A stretch of DNA of 64,000 nucleotides from contig JAGQHB010000102.1 of NCBI GenBank assembly GCA_020432045.1, positions 1-64,000 on the forward strand, in the 5' to 3' direction. Positions 57,264 through 64,000 of the stretch are shown one piece after another; positions within the stretch are counted from its first letter, which is position 1; the number at the start of each line of letters is the position of its first letter. The stretch is from Dehalococcoidia bacterium (GTDB lineage: Bacteria > Chloroflexota > Dehalococcoidia > Tepidiformales > Tepidiformaceae). The notes under the pieces are model-generated. The model was not told the origin of the DNA, did not search any database, and saw nothing but the letters and a program-made list of their open reading frames with translations. The translations under genes were made by a program, and so were the position numbers.

Positions 57264-60200
57264 TTACCATGCGTCAATATAGGGGCGCTTCTTACCAGTT
57301 CGAGGTGTCGTTCGCACCGACTCAAGAGTGCGCGCGATCCAGCTTCGTGTTTCCGCGGGGTCGATGAGCTCGTCAATTGCAAAAGCCTGCGCCTGGTTCA
57401 TCGCGTTCCAGGCTTCGTAGTCCGCCGCAACCAGATCGTCAAAGACTTTCTTCCGGGTTGCCTGGTCTTCGATGGCGGCGAGCCGGGCCTTCTGGCTCAG
57501 CCTGATGGACCCTTCAATGTTCATCCTCGCGAATTCTCCGGTCGGCCACGTCACGTTGAAGATCGACGGTGGCTGCATTGCCGCTGCCCCGAGGCCGGTT
57601 CGTTTTCGCAAGACGATGTTCATCACCGGGACCGTGAGGTTCGACCCCACCAGGAACATCCGGCTCGAGTGACGGAGGATGGCGGTTCGTTCCGTTTCCG
57701 GGCCGACCATTGTTCCAGGGGTGTCGCAGAGCGAGATGATTGGCAAGTCAAATGCGTCGCAAAGCTGCATGAAACGTGCAGCCTTGTCGGAACCGTCCGC
57801 GTCGAGCGCCCCGCTGAGAACCAGCGGGTTGTTTGCAATGACCCCTACCGGGCGCCCTTCGAGCCGTATGAGAGCGGTCAACATCGCCGCACCGAAGCCC
57901 GCACGAAGCTCGAGCACCGAGCCGGTGTCGGCAAGCAACTCGATCACCCTGCGCATGTCGTAGGCGCGAACCCGGTTTTCGGGCACGACAGAGCGCAGGA
58001 GCCGTTGATCAGCGGCTTCCCATGGCGATGTTGCCCCCTGAAAGTACGAGAGGTAGCGCTTTGCGGCGGCGGTGGCGCTGGCTTCGTCCTCTACAAGGAC
58101 ATCGATCACACCATTGGGAAACTGGACCGACGTAGGCCCGATGTCTTCTGGGGCGACGATCCCAAGGCCGCCTCCTTCGACCATCGCCGGTCCACCCATC
58201 CCAAGATTTGAATTGTTGGTCGCGATGATGACGTCGCAGACGCCGAGCAACCCTGCATTGCCAGCGAAGCAGCGTCCGTTCACCACGCCAACAAGCGGGA
58301 CGAGTCCACTAAGCCTGCTCGCCAGTGTCCACAAGCTGGTCGTGGAACCCTCGTTGGCGCCATGTTCTCCCGACCGCGCTCCGCCACCTTCGGCGTAGAC
58401 GACAACCGGCAGCTGGCCCTGCTCCGCGACTTCGAGCATGCGGCGAATCTTCGCCATCCCCCGGCGGCCCTGTGTACCGGCGAAGACCGTGCCGTCGTGC
58501 GCAATGATTACGCATTTCGATACTGGGGCCGTGAAGAGTTCGCTGTTGACGGCGCCGATGCCTGCAACAACTCCGTCTGCCTGAGAACGTTCGATGAGCT
58601 CAGCGGTCTCGAAGCGGTGCTCCTGGGCAGCGACGACGAGCCGTCCGTACTCCAGGAAGGAGGCACCGCAGAGGTCGTCGACGTTCTCGCGGGCGGTGCG
58701 GCCGCCCGAAGCATGACGCCGGGCGACCTGGCTGCCGCGTGCCGAGTCCAAGGTCTGAGTACGGCGGACAAAAACCGACTCAAGGTCTGACCGCACGCGG
58801 TCCGGGTCATCGTCGATGCTTGCGGCCAGGTCGTCAGCATCGATATCCGTCGCTTCGATGTCGACCAACGGACGGCCCTTCACGGCAATGGCACCCGCAG
58901 CCGCGAGGACGGTCACGACTCGCCCGCTGACGGGCGATCGGACCTCGTGCTCCATTTTCATGGCTTCGATGACGGCGACGATCGCACCGGCCTGAACCAT
59001 GTCACCCGGAACTACATTGACACTCACAATGGTGCCCTGGACCGGAGCCCTAAGCACGAGCATGCCACCAAGGTCGACCGGTGACACCAGCTCATCCTCT
59101 TGTTCTAGGGCTGTCGTCCTGCCGGCGCTTTCGTGTGGCGCCGGACGCGGCGACGGTCTGGACGCAAACGCCGCCGAACGAGCGGCAATATCCGATGTGT
59201 GATCATCGATAAAACGCGTGGTCAATGTGCCCTGGCGGACAGCCGGTTGCTCGAGCAGCGCGCGAAGAAACGGGATGTTGGTGGCGATGCCCTCGACGTC
59301 GAATTCGGCTAACGCCCGTTCGAGCCGGGTGACCGATTCTGTGAACGTGCCCGACGGCACATGCGCGATCACCTTTGCGAGGAGGCTGTCGTAGGCTACG
59401 CCGGGGGTAAAACCAACATAGCCCGCGCCATCGGTCCGGACGCCCAGGCCCGACGGGGGCTCGTATCGAGTAATCGTTCCCAAAGCGGGCTCGACGGTTC
59501 CGTCCGGCGCGATCGTTTCGAGATTTATGCGGGCCTGGATCGCGTACCCACGTGGGTTTTGACCGGCGTCCGGGGAGATACCCAGCTGGCCAAAACTCTC
59601 TCCTGTGGCGAGTGCAATTTGAAGGCGGACGAGATCAACCCCAGTTACCTCCTCAGTCACCGTATGCTCCACCTGCAGTCGCGGATTGGTCTCCATGAAG
59701 AAGAACGCTCCGGGTGAGCTTACGTCGACCAGGAATTCAAAAGTGGCAATGCCCTTTAGCCGGGCTGCGCGTGCCATTGCCAGGGCCGCATCAGTGAGCC
59801 GCGTGCGCATCGCGGGGTCGAGAGACGGCGCAGGCGCAACCTCAACGATCTTCTGGTGCCGCCGCTGAAGCGAACACTCCCGTTCGCCGAGGTGAATGAC
59901 AGAACCGGTGAGGTCGGCCGCCGTTTGGACCTCTATGTGACGCGCCTCCCGAAGTGCCCGTTCGATGTAGAGGCGCCCGTCGCCAAACGCAGCTGCGGCT
60001 TCGGACCGGCAACGTTCGAACATCGGTCCTATCTCGGCGGCGTCAGTAACGATGCGGATTCCCCGGCCCCCGCCGCCTGCAACCGCCTTGATTGCCATCG
60101 CAGCACCCGAGCCGAGGGATCCGAAGAACGCAGCCGCCTCCCCGCTTGATACCGGCTCCACCGACCCGTCTAGCAGCGGGACATTGAGGGAACGGGCCAG

Positions 60201-60563
60201 TTCTCTGGCCGCGACTTTGTCGCCGAACAGTCGCAGAGTCTCTTCGGGCGGGCCAATAAAGTTCAGGCCTGCGGCGGCGCACTGACCGGCGAAGGTGGCG
60301 TTCTCGCTAAGGAAACCGTAGCCGGGGTGGATAAGGTCACAACCGGATTCGCGAGCAAGCGAGATGATAGCCGGGCCGTCCAGATAGGCTTTCGCGCCCG
60401 ACCCGGGCAAAGCGAGCGACTGGCCAGCTTTGAATCGATGGAGCGCAGAGTCGTCGTCAGTGGCATAGATGGCGACCGATTCGATGCCCATCTCAGCCGC
60501 AGTCCGGGCGATGCGGATAGCGATCTCCCCACGGTTGGCGATAAGGAGGCGGCGAACAGTCAA
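57264..60563 (-). CDS. Single-chain acyl-CoA carboxylase, second copy
   Basis: A 1099-residue protein with biotin carboxylase (1-450; RRLLIANRGEIAIRIARTAA, AGGGGRGIRIV, HLGERECSLQRRHQKIVE), biotin carrier (Lys536 in EAMKMEHEV) and carboxyltransferase (from about 610; GGRTARENVDDL, EGGGLGIVAPEDIGP). It is collinear with the enzyme encoded at 27395-30757 and clearly homologous throughout. The linker and carrier regions diverge most, so acyl specificities may differ. The start is TTG 60563, four bases after GGAGAGG; a frame to 60632 has no supporting site. It is transcribed convergently with the SDR. Confidence 0.9.
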   Translation of the reverse strand: MTVRRLLIANRGEIAIRIARTAAEMGIESVAIYATDDDSALHRFKAGQSLALPGSGAKAYLDGPAIISLARESGCDLIHPGYGFLSENATFAGQCAAAGLNFIGPPEETLRLFGDKVAARELARSLNVPLLDGSVEPVSSGEAAAFFGSLGSGAAMAIKAVAGGGGRGIRIVTDAAEIGPMFERCRSEAAAAFGDGRLYIERALREARHIEVQTAADLTGSVIHLGERECSLQRRHQKIVEVAPAPSLDPAMRTRLTDAALAMARAARLKGIATFEFLVDVSSPGAFFFMETNPRLQVEHTVTEEVTGVDLVRLQIALATGESFGQLGISPDAGQNPRGYAIQARINLETIAPDGTVEPALGTITRYEPPSGLGVRTDGAGYVGFTPGVAYDSLLAKVIAHVPSGTFTESVTRLERALAEFDVEGIATNIPFLRALLEQPAVRQGTLTTRFIDDHTSDIAARSAAFASRPSPRPAPHESAGRTTALEQEDELVSPVDLGGMLVLRAPVQGTIVSVNVVPGDMVQAGAIVAVIEAMKMEHEVRSPVSGRVVTVLAAAGAIAVKGRPLVDIEATDIDADDLAASIDDDPDRVRSDLESVFVRRTQTLDSARGSQVARRHASGGRTARENVDDLCGASFLEYGRLVVAAQEHRFETAELIERSQADGVVAGIGAVNSELFTAPVSKCVIIAHDGTVFAGTQGRRGMAKIRRMLEVAEQGQLPVVVYAEGGGARSGEHGANEGSTTSLWTLASRLSGLVPLVGVVNGRCFAGNAGLLGVCDVIIATNNSNLGMGGPAMVEGGGLGIVAPEDIGPTSVQFPNGVIDVLVEDEASATAAAKRYLSYFQGATSPWEAADQRLLRSVVPENRVRAYDMRRVIELLADTGSVLELRAGFGAAMLTALIRLEGRPVGVIANNPLVLSGALDADGSDKAARFMQLCDAFDLPIISLCDTPGTMVGPETERTAILRHSSRMFLVGSNLTVPVMNIVLRKRTGLGAAAMQPPSIFNVTWPTGEFARMNIEGSIRLSQKARLAAIEDQATRKKVFDDLVAADYEAWNAMNQAQAFAIDELIDPAETRSWIARTLESVRTTPRTGKKRPYIDAW

Positions 60564-60768
60564 TGGACCTCTCCGGCAGGCGGGGTGTGCGCAAGATACA
60601 GGAACGCTACCGCGAGGTCGTAGCTGACACATCCGGCGCCACCATCAGAAGCCCACGTAGCGACAGCCATCCGACGCACATCTCAGCGACATGCCCCCGC
60701 GCAGCTTATTAAGGACACGGTGGTGGTTGGCCAAGGGCTCCCGTCGCACGACATGTCCCATCAAGGGA

Positions 60769-61389
60769 TCAGCGATCGGTGGCGATTCGTGGTGGCCAGA
60801 GTTGTTCCACGGCGAACGCCAGCCCTATGCCAACAAGCCATGCCGCGAGATGCTGGTAATCCGCTTCGTGGCCACGGAACCAGAGCCTGAACGCATGGAT
60901 GCCTAATCCAAGGAGAACGGCACCGGGTCGCCACCTGCGCGGTGCTGCGACGGCGAGGCCACCGAGTGCAGCGAAGCAACCCGACGACGCTCCAGAGTCC
61001 TGCTCGAGCGCCCAACTGAGTGCGGTCGCGTTGCCGAGTGCACCGAGCAGCCGAAAGAGCACGACTGCGCCTGCTGAACTGATCGCATCGCCGAGAAAGA
61101 AGATCAACGCGGTGCGCCTCCATCCCCGCAGAACCTCGTAGGGTGGCACGAACGTGAGGAGCATCAACAGGATGGTCCAGTCGAGAACCGTGCGCGTCTG
61201 GACAAACGTGCCGGTGAAAAGCCGGTAGAACTGGAACATGACGAGGTCGTGCCAGTTCAGACTCAACGCATCAACGAAGCGGGCGTGGAGGCCATGCCAC
61301 ATACCAACAGTGGCAACCGTGGCCACGACCGCGGTCTGCGCGAAGGTGAACCATGGGATGCGCCATCTTCGACCAGCACACTCCATCAT
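60769..61389 (-). CDS. Rhomboid-like intramembrane protein (second of tandem pair)
   Basis: A 206-residue, six-helix membrane protein. Rhomboid-like marks are FYRLFTGTFVQ near residue 54, PPYEVLRGWRR near residue 82, a probable nucleophile Ser135 in DSGASSGCFAALGG, and His180 in ADYQHLAAWLVG. This resembles the Gly-x-Ser and His dyad of rhomboid proteases. It is clearly paralogous to the gene upstream, over which it is coupled by TGATGATG (starts possible at 61389 or 61386). The longer frame to 61428 is not needed. Whether it is a protease or an inactive iRhom-like protein cannot be decided without activity data. Confidence 0.6.
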   Translation of the reverse strand: MMECAGRRWRIPWFTFAQTAVVATVATVGMWHGLHARFVDALSLNWHDLVMFQFYRLFTGTFVQTRTVLDWTILLMLLTFVPPYEVLRGWRRTALIFFLGDAISSAGAVVLFRLLGALGNATALSWALEQDSGASSGCFAALGGLAVAAPRRWRPGAVLLGLGIHAFRLWFRGHEADYQHLAAWLVGIGLAFAVEQLWPPRIATDR

Positions 61390-62024
61390 CAGGGGGGCGA
61401 TTCGGCGGCCCGAGCTGAAAGATGCCATACGGCATCGAGGAGGTGTCCCGTCAGCGCTCCGGCAGCGAAGCCAAAGCCATGCTGGACATCAGAGAACTTC
61501 GGGTTCCAGATCATCGGCACTACGAATGCCGCAATTCCAAGTACGGTTGATGCAATTCCCGGTTTTCCGTGAGTGACGGCGGCGGAGGCCCCGAGGCATC
61601 CGAACGCGCCCACGGATGCTCCGGTCTCAAGGCTTGACGACCAGCGCACGGCTGTCTGGTTCCCGGCGACGCCTGTTGCTCGCAGCAACATGAGCGACGC
61701 CGCGGATCCCAAGAAATCGGCAACGAAAAAGACAATACCGGCCCGGCGAGCACCTCGCACTCGCTCGTAGGCGAAACACGAAACGCCCACCAACAGCAGG
61801 ATCGGCAGTGTCACGCCGGGCGACTGTTGAACAAAGACATTCCCGAGCAAGCGCTGAGCTCGAAGGTTAAGGATGTACTCCCAGTTGATGCCGAGTGCTG
61901 CAACCAGGCGGCGATGGCGCCCTGGGTTGTGCCATGTTGCCAGTTGGACGGCCAGGATAGCGGCCGTCAGGATAGCCGTGAACCACGGTCTCGGGAACGC
62001 GAAACGCCGTTTCCTCACCTCCAC
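61389..62024 (-). CDS. Rhomboid-like intramembrane protein (first of tandem pair)
   Basis: A 211-residue membrane protein with about six helices. It has AQRLLGNVFVQ near residue 57, FAYERVRGARR near residue 84, the GxS block ETGASVGAFGCLGA with Ser137, and DVQHGFGFAAGALTGH with His182, a good match to the last rhomboid helix. It is collinear with the downstream protein (for example GIVFFVADFLGSA versus LIFFLGDAISSA), so the pair arose by duplication. The start at 62024 overlaps the DUF2156 stop by ten bases. The context suggests that it works on the lipid-modifying proteins upstream. Confidence 0.62.
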   Translation of the reverse strand: MEVRKRRFAFPRPWFTAILTAAILAVQLATWHNPGRHRRLVAALGINWEYILNLRAQRLLGNVFVQQSPGVTLPILLLVGVSCFAYERVRGARRAGIVFFVADFLGSAASLMLLRATGVAGNQTAVRWSSSLETGASVGAFGCLGASAAVTHGKPGIASTVLGIAAFVVPMIWNPKFSDVQHGFGFAAGALTGHLLDAVWHLSARAAESPP

Positions 62025-63685
62025 TTCTCCAACAGCCGCTGGGTGAACCGCGGCAGCCGGATTGGAAGAGCCCCGGAGCGCTCTCCGGCTCGAACCACAC
62101 TCAACAGGAGCGAAGGCAGGTCAAGGTCGTTCTCATAGACGAGGAATCGCGGCTCCCATCGGGGGTTCCACTTGTCTTTGAACGCTCTGAGACCCTCGAA
62201 GTTGAAGGCCGAGCCACCGAGCTCTCGAACCAAACGCACGGACCGCCCGCCCAGGCCCCCTTCATCAACGCGCGCCAGTGGTGCGAAACCGAGGTTCATT
62301 CCGTCCAGTTTCTCGGCCCTAAAGAAGTCGATGAGGTACACGAACAGATAATCCATGACCCCATCGGGAGAGTCGGGGCGCCGTCGCATCAGGTCGAAAT
62401 TCCCATTCTTCGAAGCGAGCGGTGGAAGCGCATTTACGAACGCTTCGATCCGCCCCCCGGACGACCGCACCACGAACACGTCCGTCTCCTGCAGGTACTC
62501 CCGACCGAAGGCTCCCAGGCTGAAACTACGTTCGCGGTGGCCGCCGTCCGCGAGCCATGCATCTGAGACCTCGCGCAACTCGTCCAGAACGTCGTCGCCG
62601 ATCGGCTTCGAGAGCTGCTCGATGGTGCACCCACCCCGACTGAGCCGGTTGCACGCATTGCGGACGTGCTTAAAAGCTTTTCCATCAAGGCTGAATTCCT
62701 GGACGGGGACGATGGCCTCCTCGCCGATCTTCAATGCTTTGAACCCCACCGCTCGCAATGTATCTGCGCCGGGCTCGGTCACCTGATGGAACGCGATCCG
62801 CCAGCCGTTCATCTCGCAGAAGCTGCCGAACTGCCTGGCGACGGCAGGCACGGCAGCTTCGGCGCCGATTGGTTCGCCCAGTGCAACCGCCGTTCCGGAG
62901 ACTACCCGGTAGCCAATAAATGCATCGCCAGCCTCGCTGAAGAAGTAACGCTTGTCATCCAGCAGGTGGAAGTACGCGATCCCTGAGGTGGCGTATCGCT
63001 CCAGCAGTTGGCGTACGAGCGCTCGCTCCGTGCGAAGCGTGGTTGCGCGGTCGATGACCGGACGTACCAGCAGCCAGAGTCCTACGACCAGCACCACCAG
63101 CGCCGTGATCCGCACCGACTCGATGAACCAGTGGCCATGGCGCGAAGCCGGATCGATCGTGGTTGTTGGCAGGATGAAAAGGAGGCGAAAGCCATTCTCG
63201 ACCGCTTCCAGGAAGTCTGGAGAATGCCGAAAGTCCCGGTCCAGGAAGTAGATGCCGAGGACGCCATAGGTGAACACCCCAGCGAACCCGAGGATGAGCC
63301 ACACGGCCCCCTGCCGCGCCCGGACGGGGTCACTCCGGGCCGGAAAGTATCCCGCTGTCAGAAGCAGGCTGACCAGGGCCACGGCCGTAAGACCAACCCC
63401 TGCGATGTCGGCACGCTTCAGCGGATGGGCGATTAGCGAGCCGCACAATGCTGCTACGGCCACGAGCCAGGCGGCGCGCTTTCCGCGAGACAGTCCCCCA
63501 ACGGAGCCAAGCATCGCTATGGATGCGAAGAGCAACAGAAAGCGAGAGCCCCGAATCGCAACCCCGTGGATGTGTTCTGGTCCGAGACTCAGCAGCGGCT
63601 CTCGTACGGCCGCCAACCAGACATTTGTGAGGGCGAGCATCAGCACCAGGGCTGCGATAGCGCGCCGCACCGTCCGGCGACTCAT
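62015..63685 (-). CDS. MprF-like aminoacyl-phosphatidylglycerol synthase domain protein (DUF2156)
   Basis: A 556-residue protein. The N-terminal 215 residues contain about six or seven helices (for instance AIAALVLMLALTNVWLAA and LTAVALVSLLLTAGYFP). The remainder is a duplicated GNAT-like DUF2156 domain: YATSGIAYFHLLDDKRYFFS near residue 245, AVALGEPIG near residue 275, EFSLDGKAFKHVRNACNRL near residue 350 and GVMDYLFVYLIDFFRAEKLD near residue 440. These match the catalytic half of MprF/LysX, which transfers an amino acid from aminoacyl-tRNA to phosphatidylglycerol. The start at ATG 63685 overlaps the upstream stop as ATGA. No lysyl-tRNA synthetase domain is fused. Confidence 0.8.
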   Translation of the reverse strand: MSRRTVRRAIAALVLMLALTNVWLAAVREPLLSLGPEHIHGVAIRGSRFLLLFASIAMLGSVGGLSRGKRAAWLVAVAALCGSLIAHPLKRADIAGVGLTAVALVSLLLTAGYFPARSDPVRARQGAVWLILGFAGVFTYGVLGIYFLDRDFRHSPDFLEAVENGFRLLFILPTTTIDPASRHGHWFIESVRITALVVLVVGLWLLVRPVIDRATTLRTERALVRQLLERYATSGIAYFHLLDDKRYFFSEAGDAFIGYRVVSGTAVALGEPIGAEAAVPAVARQFGSFCEMNGWRIAFHQVTEPGADTLRAVGFKALKIGEEAIVPVQEFSLDGKAFKHVRNACNRLSRGGCTIEQLSKPIGDDVLDELREVSDAWLADGGHRERSFSLGAFGREYLQETDVFVVRSSGGRIEAFVNALPPLASKNGNFDLMRRRPDSPDGVMDYLFVYLIDFFRAEKLDGMNLGFAPLARVDEGGLGGRSVRLVRELGGSAFNFEGLRAFKDKWNPRWEPRFLVYENDLDLPSLLLSVVRAGERSGALPIRLPRFTQRLLEKWR

Positions 63686-64000
63686 GGCGGCACTGCGATG
63701 TTCGTCGACAGTTGCCGGGCGGCGATCGCTCCGAGCACGAACGGGACCCAGGTGTCGAATAGACGGTAGACGAGAGTGGCTGCGGTGGCCGTGGCGACCG
63801 GCAGTCCGAAGGCAACCAGTACGGCGCCGAGCGAAGCTTCGGCTGTCCCCGCCCCGGCCGGGAGTATGCCCACTATCGAGAACAGGACTGAGATCGCATA
63901 CGCCACGAGTGCCACTGCGAGGGACACTTTCCCGCCGACCGCGTAAACGACCAACCAGAGAGTAAGGATCGCTAGAGCTTCCCACGCCAGGGCGTGAATG
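63682..64000 (-). CDS. Partial flippase-like membrane protein (lysyl-PG synthase TM / AglD family)
   Basis: The coding frame is open to the right edge, so only the last 105 residues are seen. They form three to four hydrophobic helices with the family mark PAGAGTAEASLGAVLVAFGLP, matching the PGG.G..E..L.....A.G.P pattern of UPF0104/AglD proteins that form the flippase half of MprF. It ends in an ATGA overlap with the synthase gene, so the MprF functions are split over two adjacent genes. Confidence 0.72.
   Translation of the reverse strand, partial: IHALAWEALAILTLWLVVYAVGGKVSLAVALVAYAISVLFSIVGILPAGAGTAEASLGAVLVAFGLPVATATAATLVYRLFDTWVPFVLGAIAARQLSTNIAVPP

Follow-up and report, generated by a model that had tools for sequence, protein, structure and literature searches.

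What do two small rhomboid-like proteins do in an operon for the modification of membrane lipids? The question is raised by one end of the window, a stretch of 64,000 nt of DNA from a Dehalococcoidia bacterium (Chloroflexota; Tepidiformaceae) belonging to the same family as Tepidiforma (assembly GCA_020432045.1, contig JAGQHB010000102.1, positions 1 to 64,000 of the forward strand). Four genes run here on the minus strand in the order flippase, synthase, RhoA, RhoB, and all their junctions overlap. RhoA and RhoB denote the tandem rhomboid-like proteins of the window, Rho the module in general.

The flippase gene is cut by the window edge. Its 3' part (63682-64000, minus strand) matches PF03706 at 4.1e-15; the complete protein, 347 aa long (L004:3683-4726; to contig position 64725), scores 93.6 bits over the profile (2e-26; cut-off 33.4), and the LPG_synthase_TM flippase domain is therefore present. 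The synthase (62015-63685, minus strand; 556 aa) features membrane helices followed by a GNAT-like LPG_synthase_C domain which covers all of PF09924 (residues 1-298 of 298, 9.4e-78), and matches the MprF structures 6lvf and 7duw at 3.5e-55. Judged by sequence, its N-terminal helices correspond to what MprF ordinarily has in its synthase half; the protein aligns to positions 319-837 of NCBIfam bifunc_MprF, and flippase and synthase are therefore a plain MprF split in two.

RhoA (61389-62024, minus strand) has 211 residues and a GTG start, RhoB (60769-61389, minus strand) 206 residues, and the two are 36% identical (E 1.7e-23). Flippase and synthase overlap by ATGA (63682-63685), the synthase stop and the GTG of RhoA by 10 bases (62015-62024), and the RhoA stop and RhoB start, the latter at 61389, lie within TGATGATG. 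The codons of interest are those for RhoA Ser137 (61614-61616; GxS, first residues of TM4) and His182 (61479-61481; D-x-x-H, TM6), both placed by the alignment of linked relatives and the structural model, and for RhoB Ser135 (60985-60987) and His180 (60850-60852), placed by alignments; all four are on the minus strand. An earlier note on this DNA had described four overlapping minus-strand genes, a flippase with an MprF-like synthase carrying its own N-terminal helices, two paralogous small proteins, and these same Ser and His residues. Coordinates, junctions and residue positions proved exact, the profile matches agree with the naming of the first two genes, and paralogy is borne out by the identity of the small proteins and by their place in the Rho tree. 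A scan for promoters and terminators gave results at chance level. Genes on the same strand flank the operon: a P-type cation ATPase gene (L004:4872-7640) 145 bases upstream of the flippase and, 136 bases downstream of RhoB, a gene for a fused biotin carboxylase/carboxyltransferase (window 57264-60632).

Whether RhoA and RhoB are rhomboids is answered differently by structure and by sequence profiles. The template-free AlphaFold2 model of RhoA, built from 17 diverse sequences, has six membrane helices (pLDDT 92.1, pTM 0.88). In the PDB, the first 34 structures ranked by Foldseek all have a rhomboid fold; they are GlpG or iRhom, nearly all GlpG. The probability for GlpG is 1.00 and its TM scores reach 0.66 on the query and 0.74 on the target, E-values being all above 0.001. 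As in GlpG, Ser137 opens model helix 4 (136-149; model numbering is minus one) and His182 resides inside model helix 6 (177-207). RhoA scores 15.3 bits against Pfam Rhomboid (PF01694), under the cut-off of 22.6, and RhoB has no match; neither matches Rhomboid_2 (PF20401), which is matched by 3 of 14 linked Rho at E up to 1 (best 2.7e-5). One linked relative passes PF01694 (L095), and another is above the PF20401 cut-off (L271). Local profile comparison of Rho with canonical rhomboids is not significant; a forced global comparison, made with a wider set including unlinked rhomboids, gave 97.6%. Neither window protein reaches a curated rhomboid cut-off, and the rhomboid call consequently rests on fold, motifs and relatives. 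The rhomboid nature supposed in the earlier note is supported by the structure prediction; profile search gives a sub-threshold score for RhoA and nothing for RhoB. Both are best regarded as proteins of predicted rhomboid fold.

Conservation is concentrated on a few residues. Among the 37 MprF-linked Rho sampled for alignment, the Gly of GxS is found in 37/37 and the Ser in 36/37, and the last-helix His in all 35 readable rows. The only invariant columns in 14 Rho which are 20-30% identical to RhoA are F99, G135, S137 and H182. An acidic residue (D or E) stands at position -4 from the Ser in 36/37 linked Rho, and a D at -3 from the His in 31/37; canonical rhomboids of the same family have no acidic residues at these places. 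The acidic residue before GxS is not specific to Rho, since 12 of the 21 rhomboid-like proteins without such linkage have it too.

The state of the dyad varies with gene arrangement. Ser and His are both intact in all 36 Rho which are either separate genes or fused to the C-terminus of the synthase, window copies included. Among the 21 N-terminal fusions sampled, 10 are intact, two have Thr with the His kept, and nine lack Ser and/or His. The conservation that the earlier note named as a check extends to every separate or C-fused relative sampled and breaks down in 9/21 N-terminal fusions. Sampling by the Rho profile favours intact copies, and it was synthase-based sampling that exposed the degenerate N-terminal fusions, by which a dyad universal in all Rho is ruled out. 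Thr replaces Ser in the N-fused protein L224, and also in L216, which is among the Rho-profile matches; Ser and/or His are lost in L225-L227, L259-L261 and L272-L274. Changes in these degenerate actinobacterial fusions (L224-L227, L259-L261, L272-L274) are Ser to Thr, His to Arg, or loss of both, and some of the fusions are carried by conjugative plasmids. The Rho domain can persist without the dyad, but not, as far as sampled, in the arrangement of the window.

Linkage of Rho to MprF was monitored in 294 genomes of Dehalococcoidia with a five-sequence Rho profile, matches of 78 bits or more being taken as strong. Each of the 13 strong places, found in 12 genomes, lies next to an MprF synthase gene or forms part of one, and no place at about 50 bits or less is adjacent to one. 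Full-size synthases (PF09924 at 214 bits or more) are encoded by 19 of the 294 genomes. Rho is present in 12 of these 19 vs. 0 of the 275 others (Fisher p about 7e-17); as seven synthase genomes lack Rho, the module is not obligatory for MprF. Gene order varies within the class: flippase-synthase-Rho, fused MprF then Rho, Rho first (L045), divergent Rho (L046), and Rho fused before the synthase, a N-terminal fusion of this kind being found in Chloroflexota genome G058. The genome from which the window derives has on contig 36 a second cluster made up by flippase, synthase and a single Rho. This cluster (L005:1-9458) has ABC exporter genes on one side and a histidine kinase/response regulator pair on the other, both in opposite orientation to it, a setting often seen at loci for peptide resistance.

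The association extends beyond the class. Rho sits beside a synthase, a fused MprF or a flippase in other Chloroflexota (L093-L095), and a wider, synthase-led scan of GTDB contigs found Rho at 14 of 80 named loci, all in Chloroflexota or Actinomycetota; no Rho was found at the cyanobacterial, Bacteroidota or Armatimonadota loci among those 80. In Hoyosella, Klenkia and Ilumatobacteraceae the synthase is extended at its C-terminus by Rho, while flippase, synthase and Rho make up a single reading frame of 1246 aa in Goekera deserti (L105:1602-5342); at another locus (L104) a fused Rho is followed by a second Rho gene. Many Actinomycetia proteins of 690-880 aa have the layout Rho-TM-synthase, and several Actinomycetia with genomes of 7-10 Mb have a Rho gene after a gene for a synthase of about 600 aa. 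On the whole, 21 of 49 actinomycete Rho matches lie within 3 kb of a synthase. N-fused proteins are annotated at NCBI as DUF2156 or lysyltransferase-domain proteins, and in the fusions tested with Pfam the Rho part is unlabelled or below cut-off. Chance co-location of Rho and synthase is ruled out by this recurrence and by the fusions; the gene order whose recurrence the earlier note proposed to survey is widespread, fusions included, in both phyla. In five actinomycetes (L275 of G828, G725, G838, G818, G662) an unlinked Rhomboid_2-type gene is found 5.6-11 kb from a synthase of LysX length, which could be shared synteny only.

In the Rho tree RhoA and RhoB are sisters (support 99/94), and are therefore the result of a duplication. 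The tree sets 34 linked Rho apart from the unlinked ones (85/94), L093-L095 falling elsewhere, and long branches weaken its deep nodes. Several separate, well-supported parts of the synthase tree contain Rho-linked members, and the Rho labels cluster, a pattern which may reflect either an old linkage with losses or repeated recruitment.

Such clustering, and the relatedness of many of the cases, are what neutral gene order inherited from a single ancestor, with no functional tie, would leave behind. Yet the linkage survives rearrangement (Rho first, or divergent), fusion at either end of the synthase and the distance between two phyla; it appears in separate parts of the synthase tree, and independent fusions in different orders were found. 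Neutral linkage is accordingly very improbable, and we estimate at about 0.93 the probability that Rho is a functional partner of MprF. There is good support for viewing RhoA and RhoB as paralogues of a rhomboid-fold protein which serves MprF lipid aminoacylation as a third module. The partnership proposed by the earlier note is supported by the predicted fold, the recurrent linkage and the fusion layouts, with the dyad kept in separate and C-fused relatives but not in all N-terminal fusions; the two mechanisms offered there, regulated proteolysis of synthase or flippase and movement of lipids, stay conjectural.

How the partner may act is a harder matter. Our tentative preference is for a membrane-embedded Ser-His hydrolase or transferase working on the aminoacyl lipid, ahead of proteolysis and of a role in structure only; the proposal leans on analogy and falls short of an even chance. 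The synthase would load an amino acid from tRNA onto a lipid of the inner leaflet, and the flippase would move the aminoacyl lipid outward. Rho, docked on the synthase helices, would cut or transfer the aminoacyl ester by means of a Ser-His dyad accessible from the outer leaflet, and so set the amount of aminoacyl lipid displayed. Rhomboid topology is established for GlpG; by the same topology we infer that the Rho dyad opens to the outer leaflet, where the flipped aminoacyl lipid is displayed. Rho may thus be the membrane-embedded counterpart of the soluble hydrolases paired with MprF (AcvB, PA0919). This hydrolase or transferase reading is favoured because synthase-hydrolase operons (lpiA-acvB) are known and because hydrolases are found beside synthases lacking Rho, if in few cases. 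On a plasmid of Rubrobacter radiotolerans (L228:2254-6009) consecutive genes encode a PF00756 esterase, a synthase and a flippase; Rho is absent and the esterase takes the position of the extra gene. In one Chloroflexota genus (L066, L068) an alpha/beta hydrolase gene is upstream of a Rho-less synthase. In AcvB, Asp residues recognise the lysyl head group, Ser336 is required, and interaction with LpiA was tested for and reported (PMC13197417). The acidic residues flanking the Rho dyad count in favour of the mechanism too, if less so for the unspecific one before GxS. Against the mechanism, we know of no lipid-cleaving rhomboid, every characterised Ser-His rhomboid known to us being a protease, and the nine sampled N-fusions without Ser and/or His imply that some retained Rho domains do without catalysis. 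The docking surface could not be read from the model of the Hoyosella fusion (pTM 0.72), its Rho part being too weak; Foldseek matches listed for that model are synthase, MprF and acetyltransferase structures only.

Rho might instead be a true intramembrane serine protease, with the synthase or flippase as substrate for turnover, or an exported protein. Such an enzyme would have the predicted fold, a Ser opening TM4 and a His within TM6; about two thirds of linked Rho have an aromatic residue at Ser+4, comparable to the stacking residue Tyr205 of GlpG (PMC3237569), and over half have a WR/YR motif in L1. But both RhoA and RhoB lack the H-x-x-x-N of TM2, on the oxyanion side, which the canonical rhomboids of the family have. 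That Rho is fused to one end of the synthase or the other is more easily understood of a stoichiometric partner than of a protease with a range of substrates. Two ordinary rhomboid proteases are encoded elsewhere in the genome, so that its housekeeping copies are not RhoA and RhoB, and no GlyGly-CTERM substrate over cut-off was found in six genomes. All told, a protease is somewhat less probable than the hydrolase or transferase, and not far behind it. Rhombosortase, transferring proteins onto a lipid amine, was rejected, TIGR03902 matching only 2 of 17 members (best 0.036); the lack of GlyGly-CTERM matches over cut-off in the six genomes speaks against it as well.

Just as probable as a protease is a Rho that is mainly a non-catalytic subunit, which would sit on the synthase helices and bind or present the aminoacyl lipid, or thin the membrane for it, as rhomboid pseudoproteases do for other clients. 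N-terminal fusions retaining the domain after loss of Ser and/or His speak for such a subunit, as does the fact that N-fused Rho occupies the flippase position in the chain, some of these genomes (G827, G765, G753, G864, G776) having no PF03706 protein over cut-off; the rest of the Rho sequence is also very diverged. It is hard to reconcile with Ser and His being invariant in all separate or C-fused copies when almost nothing else is conserved, and the conserved dyad speaks against the window copies being mere passive movers of lipid. A lipid-acting rhomboid branch, which would hydrolyse or transfer the MprF aminoacyl group at the outer leaflet and be secondarily inactive in some actinobacterial fusions, is a possibility only slightly less probable than the hydrolase or transferase mechanism itself.

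The operon resembles several known systems and matches none. Bifunctional MprF (LpiA; 6lvf, 7duw, 7f47) has the PF03706 domain, the TM helices of the synthase and the LPG_synthase_C domain, ordered as here, but is not split into two genes, and the canonical form has no rhomboid-like proteins. In LpiA-AcvB and MprF-PA0919 operons the synthase is likewise co-encoded with a Ser-dependent partner (putatively so for Rho); AcvB is reported to interact with LpiA (PMC13197417). It is soluble and periplasmic, whereas Rho is a six-helix membrane protein of predicted rhomboid fold and putative activity. Rhomboid proteases (GlpG, PF01694) share the predicted fold, GxS on TM4 and His on TM6; the window copies differ by the lack of H-x-x-x-N, by GxSxG in place of GASG, by sub-cut-off Pfam scores and by linkage to MprF. 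Rhomboid_2 (PF20401) members share D-x-G-x-S and the last-helix His, and several MprF-linked relatives match the family, but most linked copies, RhoA and RhoB included, do not, and its unlinked actinobacterial members form a separate group. Actinobacterial LysX and AlaDAGS similarly join a synthase domain to a small TM domain in a chain without flippase, but are described as six helices plus a GNAT-like domain, with no rhomboid module reported (PMC10580965). No published MprF-rhomboid pairing was found in the open papers searched; in a paper on the MmpL3 interactome a MprF-like flippase and a rhomboid each appear among the interactors of MmpL3, and are not listed there as partners of each other. 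MprF and rhomboids are each known; their pairing as a recurrent, fusible third module is the new part, not having been found in the open papers searched.

Bacteria are shielded by MprF systems against cationic peptides and daptomycin; the partners which set the level of MprF products have been described mainly as soluble hydrolases. Recurrence of Rho and its fusion to the synthase in two phyla suggest an overlooked third working part of MprF lipid modification, and a rhomboid partner of a lipid enzyme is now clearly testable. A role would follow for a large set of unannotated membrane domains hidden inside DUF2156 proteins. If the proposal is true, Rho would add to the rhomboid superfamily a branch acting on lipids, and to MprF systems a third catalytic module.
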